Position numbers and translations under genes: made by a program
Assembly (NCBI GenBank): GCA_902518415.1
Contig: CABYGA010000012.1
Coordinates: 1 to 34,688, forward strand
Source: an uncultured Pelagibacteraceae bacterium
GTDB taxonomy: Bacteria > Pseudomonadota > Alphaproteobacteria > Pelagibacterales > AG-422-B15
DNA: 34,688 bases
Direction of reading: 5' to 3'
Notes under the pieces: generated by a model
Databases searched by the model: none
What the model was told of the DNA's origin: nothing
Seen by the model: only the letters and a program-made list of their open reading frames with translations
Shown here: positions 20,436 to 21,784 of the stretch, in pieces
Position numbering within the stretch: position 1 is the first letter of the stretch
How the letters are laid out: every line of letters begins with the position of its first letter

Positions 20436-21257
20436 ATGAAAAAAAATAAGAAATCCATAAAGAAGAAAAAGAAAATTATTAAAAAAGTTCTTAAGAAAAA
20501 GAAAGCCATTAAAAAAGTTCTTAAGAAAAAGAAAGTAGTAAAAAAAACTATTAAAAAAAAGAAAGTTGCCTCAAAAAAAAAGGTAGGAGCAAAAAAAACT
20601 GTAAAAAAATTTGTAGCTCCAAAAATGCCTCAACAATCTAATAAAAAGGTTAATAATAGAATAATTAATCCTTCCCACTATCAAGCAAAAAAAGTAAAGA
20701 AATTTTTAGAAATAAAAACAATAAAAGAAAAAAAAGTCAAAAAAATATTTGAGACTAAAGACCATGTTGTTTATCCAACTCATGGCGTTGGGCAGGTCAT
20801 CGATATAGAAAAAAGAGAGGTAGTTGGTCAAAAGCTTGAAATGTACGTCATTGAATTTGTAAAGGATAAATTAATACTAAGAGTACCAGTTGATAAAGCA
20901 AAGAAACTCAGTTTAAGAAAAGTTTCAAAGCCATCAAAAATCCAAAATGTTTTGAAAATTCTCTCTCAGAAAGCCAAAATTAAAAGAACTATGTGGAGTC
21001 GACGCGCGCAGGAATATGATTTAAAAATTAACTCTGGAGAAATTGAGCAAATTGCTGAAGTAGTTAGAGATTTAAATAGGGCAAACAACCAGATAGAACA
21101 GTCTTATAGTGAACGCCAACTGTTTGAATTATCTTATGATCGTTTTTTACGCGAAGTTATTGCAAGCCTTAAAATCACTGAAGAAAATGCAATCAAAAAA
21201 ATAGACAAAATTCTTGGAAGAGACAAATTAAAAAACGCCCCTAGTCTGTTAAACTAA
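20436..21257 (+). CDS. carD: CarD/CdnL-family transcriptional regulator with long lysine-rich N-terminal tail
   Basis: CarD domain begins near residue 106 (FETKDHVVYPTHGVGQVIDIEKREVVGQKLEMYVIEFVKDKLILRVPVDKAKKLSLRKV). Preceded by ~105 aa of Lys-rich repeats. Confidence 0.88.
   Translation: MKKNKKSIKKKKKIIKKVLKKKKAIKKVLKKKKVVKKTIKKKKVASKKKVGAKKTVKKFVAPKMPQQSNKKVNNRIINPSHYQAKKVKKFLEIKTIKEKKVKKIFETKDHVVYPTHGVGQVIDIEKREVVGQKLEMYVIEFVKDKLILRVPVDKAKKLSLRKVSKPSKIQNVLKILSQKAKIKRTMWSRRAQEYDLKINSGEIEQIAEVVRDLNRANNQIEQSYSERQLFELSYDRFLREVIASLKITEENAIKKIDKILGRDKLKNAPSLLN
20478..20535 (+). repeat. 30-nt period tandem repeat encoding IKKVLKKKKx in the CarD tail
   Basis: The 28-nt string attaaaaaagttcttaagaaaaagaaag occurs exactly at 20478-20505 and 20508-20535. 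Flanking degenerate copies continue the pattern. Confidence 0.8.
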
Positions 21258-21262
21258 GGGCG
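21236..21262 (-). terminator. Hairpin overlapping the carD stop; intrinsic-terminator-like on the minus strand
   Basis: cgcccctagt-ctgttaa-actaagggcg, 10-bp stem with one mismatch. On the minus strand it is followed by a T-run (aaaaa on + immediately upstream). Confidence 0.5.
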
Positions 21263-21263
21263 C

Positions 21264-21290
21264 AAAAAAAAAGCATTGATTAATCAATGC
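21264..21290 (-). terminator. Rho-independent terminator for the 40-aa lysine-rich peptide gene
   Basis: Perfect 18-bp palindrome GCATTGATTAATCAATGC. On the minus strand it is followed by a run of nine T (aaaaaaaaa on +). Confidence 0.75.
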
Positions 21291-21293
21291 TAT

Positions 21294-21416
21294 TTATCTT
21301 TTCCTTTTTTTCTTTTTAGCTGGCTTCCTTTTAGCGGCTTTTTTCTTCTTTTTAGGAGCTGCTTTTTTCTTAGCTTTTTTCTTTGCCTTCGCAAAGATTA
21401 CTTTAAGTTCCTCCAT
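21294..21416 (-). CDS. 40-aa lysine/arginine/alanine-rich histone-H1-like basic peptide (not in supplied ORF track)
   Basis: Translates as MEELKVIFAKAKKKAKKKAAPKKKKKAAKRKPAKKKKRKR*. Preceded by GGGGGGAGATAATT-ATG (SD-like) and followed directly by the palindromic terminator. Confidence 0.7.
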   Translation of the reverse strand: MEELKVIFAKAKKKAKKKAAPKKKKKAAKRKPAKKKKRKR

Positions 21417-21454
21417 AATTATCTCCCCCCATTTGGGTTTAGTTAGAGGTTAAT

Positions 21455-21537
21455 TAATGAATCAAAAGTTTGATTCGTTATGTTCAATGATTAAACTTTT
21501 ATTGAAAACTGTCAATTTCTCAATCTTTTCAAAGATT
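21455..21537. promoter_or_regulatory. Cluster of three inverted repeats upstream of the lysine-rich peptide gene
   Basis: taatgaatcaaa-ag-tttgattcgtta (21455-21480), ttcaat-N12-attgaa (21483-21506), aatcttt-tc-aaagatt (21522-21537). Confidence 0.45.
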
Positions 21538-21707: not shown

Positions 21708-21784
21708 GCGCTCGTAGCTCAGTAGGATAGAGCACAGGATTCCTAATCCTGGGGTCGGATGTTCGAATCATCTCGAGCGCGCCA
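21708..21784 (+). tRNA. tRNA-Arg (anticodon CCU), CCA encoded
   Basis: Acceptor GCGCTCG/CGAGCGC, anticodon arm CAGGA-TTCCTAA-TCCTG, T-loop GTTCGAATC, 3' GCCA. Confidence 0.95.

Follow-up and report, generated by a model that had tools for sequence, protein, structure and literature searches.

A conserved, order-specific gene for a very small basic protein, convergent with carD, in the Pelagibacterales

Introduction

Does an open reading frame (ORF) of only 40 amino acids, lying beside carD in an uncultured Pelagibacteraceae bacterium, encode a real protein, and if so, what might that protein do? We considered these questions in a stretch of 34,688 nucleotides, here called the window, where the minus strand reads MEELKVIFAKAKKKAKKKAAPKKKKKAAKRKPAKKKKRKR from ATG to TAA, with GGGGGGAGATAATT before the ATG. 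The initial annotation had described this ORF, its ATG and its Shine-Dalgarno (SD) sequence, GGGGGGAGAT, exactly as we find them. The SAR11 bacteria (order Pelagibacterales) belong to the most abundant groups of bacteria in surface seawater and are used as a model for genome streamlining; a gene that such reduced genomes have kept throughout the group is presumably one that matters.

The gene and its surroundings

The neighbors of the peptide gene in the window encode a ferredoxin, CarD, tRNA-Arg(CCT), a tRNA-binding-domain protein and a sigma-70-family factor, and it is the 3' end of carD that adjoins the ORF (Table 1). A promoter scan identified TTGACA-17-AATCAT at 21515-21487, a combination that alone is no better than shuffle expectation. 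The first terminator is predicted to fold into an 8-bp stem with a TTAA loop followed by T8, or T9 if the palindrome's own last base is included; the palindrome and T-run noted initially are thus present, although the palindrome is 20 nt long rather than the 18 first claimed. There are five terminator-like sites in a 2.2-kb region, compared with 1.2 ± 1.1 in shuffles. The near-consensus TTGACA box, the strong SD and the tandem terminators suggest that output may be high. A leader peptide or attenuator would have a same-strand gene downstream; here the terminators follow directly and carD is on the opposite strand.

The tRNA-Arg(CCT) gene lies divergently upstream, at 21708-21784 of the window. 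It is likewise upstream in one genus of the other family (L021) and absent from that family's other scanned loci; the AGG codon is used twice in the window ORF.

Table 1. Features of the peptide gene and of carD in the window
Feature	Position	Strand	Basis
ORF, 40-aa Lys/Arg/Ala/Pro peptide, ATG to TAA	21294..21416	-	sequence, orthologs, coding test
Shine-Dalgarno region, GGGGGGAGAT	21421..21430	-	sequence, relatives
Candidate second hairpin, CTC..CCC-AAAT-GGG..GAG, over the SD, window's family	21423..21448	-	folding, alignment
5' leader hairpin, GAATCAA-ACTT-TTGATTC, beside the predicted transcript start	21459..21476	-	folding, relatives
Candidate -10, AATCAT, weak, not conserved	21487-21492	-	scan
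-35-like box, TTGACA, common to both families	21510..21515	-	scan, relatives
First terminator, 20-nt palindrome AGCATTGATTAATCAATGCT + T-run	21264..21291	-	scan, relatives
Second terminator, GCGCCC..GGGGCG (GCGCCCTTAGT..ACTAGGGGCG) + T-run, overlaps carD 3' end	21230..21263	-	scan, relatives
carD, CarD_TRCF_RID + CarD_C domains, constant convergent neighbor	20436..21257	+	domain matches, locus survey

Distribution of the gene

In the window's genus, most genomes proved to have the block when searched with 621 bp of DNA. All 15 complete copies, including that of the window, share the TTGACA box, the leader, the SD, an ORF beginning MEELKVIFAKA and the terminators, while the ORF itself ranges from 40 to 85 aa. 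Five genomes of 77-88% completeness (G005, G016, G019, G021 and G022) lack the block and a CarD match alike, and as CarD is unmatched there too, we did not count them as cases of gene absence.

Both of the Pelagibacterales families sampled contain orthologs, at 180 loci in all (with some places counted twice). Among the 72 distinct peptides that they encode, the share of Lys+Arg stays within 53-83%, while lengths range between 21 and 99 aa, changing by Lys/Ala/Pro units. The basic ORFs of the second family have 21-58 aa and start with MAKKRKKA, MPKRRKKA or similar; as in the window, they come with a TTGAC box, a hairpin with CGAATC and an SD upstream, and with a terminator and a convergent carD downstream. 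In 175 of the 180 loci carD is convergent, and in the remaining five the downstream sequence amounts to no more than 18-353 bases.

An ORF pattern matched at least 187 of 298 Pelagibacterales genomes, a lower bound because the pattern derives from second-family sequences and does not catch variants like MATKKKAKK; the reversed pattern matched none. Of 30 loci taken by this pattern, 29 are true, the exception (L048) being an unrelated 469-aa gene, and in a sample of the class the pattern matched only a Pelagibacterales genome. Records matching the leader pattern come from uncultured Pelagibacteraceae and Candidatus Pelagibacter genomes, and a narrow leader-ORF pattern had no match in viral contigs. 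In a survey anchored on CarD, which made no use of the peptide, the gene was beside carD in 14 of the 17 loci from the order. The remaining three have short or incomplete sequence: L062 is truncated at 2088 bp, and L074 and L078 are so judged by contig coordinates and a partial match. The gene is missing at all 29 carD loci taken from other alphaproteobacteria. Judging from these sequences, every SAR11 genome with a fully readable carD neighborhood carries a real, order-specific small-protein gene, whose encoded protein consists almost entirely of Lys, Arg and Ala. Conservation of the frame, start, SD and terminator in relatives, one of the checks proposed in the initial annotation, is found across the order.

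Four further genomes of 92-98% completeness (G054, G118, G173 and G164) gave no CarD match, through either true loss or the sensitivity of the search.

The leader RNA

The first 42 bases of the leader have a mean folding z of -3.9 relative to dinucleotide shuffles, in 47 distinct leaders whose loci were selected without the leader pattern. The universality of CGAAT is partly by construction, because the locus filter required it, but CGAAT is also in all 29 true loci of the ORF-pattern set, where it was not required. For the window's family, 97.6% of the pair cells in the leader alignment pair, compared with 40-63% for slid versions, and two pairs have changed on both sides. The spacing between the leader half-sites varies, and so an RNA hairpin fits better than a dimer operator. 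The candidate second hairpin has one compensatory change in its inner stem and no covariation in its outer stem. Nothing in Rfam exceeded its gathering score over the gene or leader, only tRNA passing, and with a lax threshold the matches over the gene were at chance level. The region is absent from the motifs in the sections consulted of a paper on structured RNAs in Pelagibacter (PMC2704228).

Evidence for a protein product

Such a structured leader, together with the strong terminators and the constant convergence with carD, might suggest that the transcript acts as an RNA (a small RNA or an antisense regulator of carD) and that the ORF is incidental; as the second terminator lies inside carD, the 3' ends of the two transcripts can overlap. 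The pattern of substitution argues against this, and we consider it very unlikely. Among 146 changes in 18 clusters of equal-length copies, 88 are synonymous (null 50.4 ± 4.8), 23 are Lys/Arg swaps (null 27.4 ± 4.2), 35 are other replacements (null 63.0 ± 5.2) and none is nonsense (null 5.2 ± 1.8); this null ignores phylogeny, but the direction is nevertheless clear. The window's own 40-aa subgroup holds few changes, below what the coding test needs on its own. Length differences among the orthologs are in-frame only, and at 80 named loci taken by the leader pattern, which is blind to the ORF, the basic ORF is intact in 77 cases, the other three lying at locus ends.

The A-rich codons of lysine and the AT-rich genome would also favor a chance ORF. 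We reject this explanation, whose probability is negligible, as frame, start, charge and location are conserved across the order; it is the span of this conservation that settles the matter. The ORF is, on this comparative evidence, a real protein gene with its peptide under purifying selection, a test of the dN/dS type having been another of the checks initially suggested. The view that the gene is independently transcribed is also strongly supported as a prediction, promoter, leader, frame, charge and terminator being kept order-wide.

Nature of the peptide

In Pfam, four orthologs had no family at E ≤ 1 and the window peptide had none at E ≤ 0.1. NCBIfam and PHROGs had no match to the peptide either. 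These negatives are limited by low-complexity corrections. We found no paper describing the gene in the open-access literature as judged by title and abstract. By these searches the peptide matches no known family. Trypsin would leave no fully cleaved fragment longer than 7 residues from any of the 72 peptides, so that standard trypsin-based proteomics would hardly detect the product, and the gene sits in a blind spot of both annotation and such proteomics.

The suggestion made initially, a nucleic-acid-binding peptide resembling histone H1, is plausible and is our best inference; that the product is specifically an abundant polycation like the tail of histone H1, binding DNA and/or RNA, we would put at about an even chance. 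The peptide would then be a tail-only variant of the bacterial H1-like proteins. Hc2 of Chlamydia (similar proteins occur in Bordetella and elsewhere) and the AlgP and PhaF tails of Pseudomonas share with it the Lys/Ala/Pro composition and a length that varies with repeat number; Hc2 varies in size through Lys-rich repeats (PMC2848022), and peptides of the AlgP KPAA tail bind DNA (PMC9239181). Unlike them, the SAR11 peptide has 21-99 aa and no folded domain, is order-specific and is convergent with carD behind a structured leader. According to this scheme, a monocistronic Pelagibacterales gene would supply, in quantity, a tiny polycation similar to the disordered Lys/Ala/Pro tail of histone H1. 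It would bind nucleic acid by charge, with an affinity set by repeat number, and condense DNA or coat RNA alongside HU and IHF, while the leader hairpins might stabilize the mRNA and allow free peptide to feed back on translation. Several observations count against an H1-like protein: composition and repeat-number variation fit, but there is no match to a curated family model, whether Hc1, Hc2 or any other; the genomes still have two or three HU/IHF-type genes, leaving no gap for the peptide to fill; and the forms of 21-25 aa equal ribosomal eL41 and bS22 in shortness and basic charge.

This last resemblance supports the chief rival to the polycation, a tiny ribosomal protein like bS22, eL41 or mS38, that is, a short basic helix in an rRNA pocket, which we regard as somewhat unlikely. 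These proteins are also very short, very basic and readily missed by annotation: Borrelia bS22, with 61% Lys+Arg, escaped annotation, and eL41 consists of one helix of 24 aa (PMC10618245). The commonest SAR11 form, of 25 aa and 76% Lys+Arg, is near bS22 and eL41 in size and charge, and in the short forms the residues other than Lys and Arg recur every 4 positions (lag 4 z = 9, with repeats that are not independent), as one face of a helix would give. On the other hand, a more than fourfold range of length, 21 to 99 aa, produced by expansion of Lys/Ala repeats with Pro spacers would be odd for a fixed pocket. COX24_C (PF08213) does not match the peptides and was not found in 8 SAR11 genomes, and no PDB sequence, ribosomal chains included, matched them, although low-complexity filters weaken this point. 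On either the nucleoid or the ribosome, the peptide offers a testable case of a minimal polycation.

A possible link to HU

The HU gene in three genomes of the window's genus (L239, L240 and L241) has TTGAC..ACGAATCA before its SD, with spacing nearly as in the peptide gene. In the other family, AACGAATC stands in the HU leaders of two genera and AACGATTCG in a third, while the largest genus is without. In the three leaders above and in those of L247 and L251, ACGAATC is directly 5' of the SD, as in the peptide gene. Shared control of the peptide gene and HU, two basic proteins of nucleoid type, is possible, but when a TTGAC..CGAATCA regulon was sought genome-wide, the matches were about as numerous as for the reversed control, so the link is a lead only. 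A search for ACGAATC-SD-ATG gave few matches, one of them before a PstS-like gene. The fullest version of the scheme, an order-specific nucleic-acid-packaging micro-protein co-regulated with HU through the ACGAATC leader element, autoregulated through the SD hairpin and overlooked because of the tiny size of its gene and the near lack of usable tryptic peptides, seems to us improbable as a whole.

Relation to the CarD tail

As CarD has a Lys-rich tail and the two genes adjoin, the peptide might be a free-standing copy or fission product of that tail, and the initial annotation had likened the two and placed the tail opposite the ORF. The tail is N-terminal, however, and is encoded roughly 500-900 bp away, so it does not lie opposite. 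It is also part of a larger protein and persists in full in SAR11, and its spacers differ: Ile, Leu and Val make up about 19-27% of SAR11 CarD tails and 0-4% of the peptide, where Ala and Pro serve instead. Because of these spacers and the N-terminal position, the idea of a free-standing tail is unsupported, and descent from the tail seems to us less probable even than an RNA function. CarD N-terminal tails (window 20436-20770, and loci L080-L108) are long and Lys-rich throughout SAR11, at 64-152 aa; in other alphaproteobacteria they are Lys/Ala-rich in some and very short in many.
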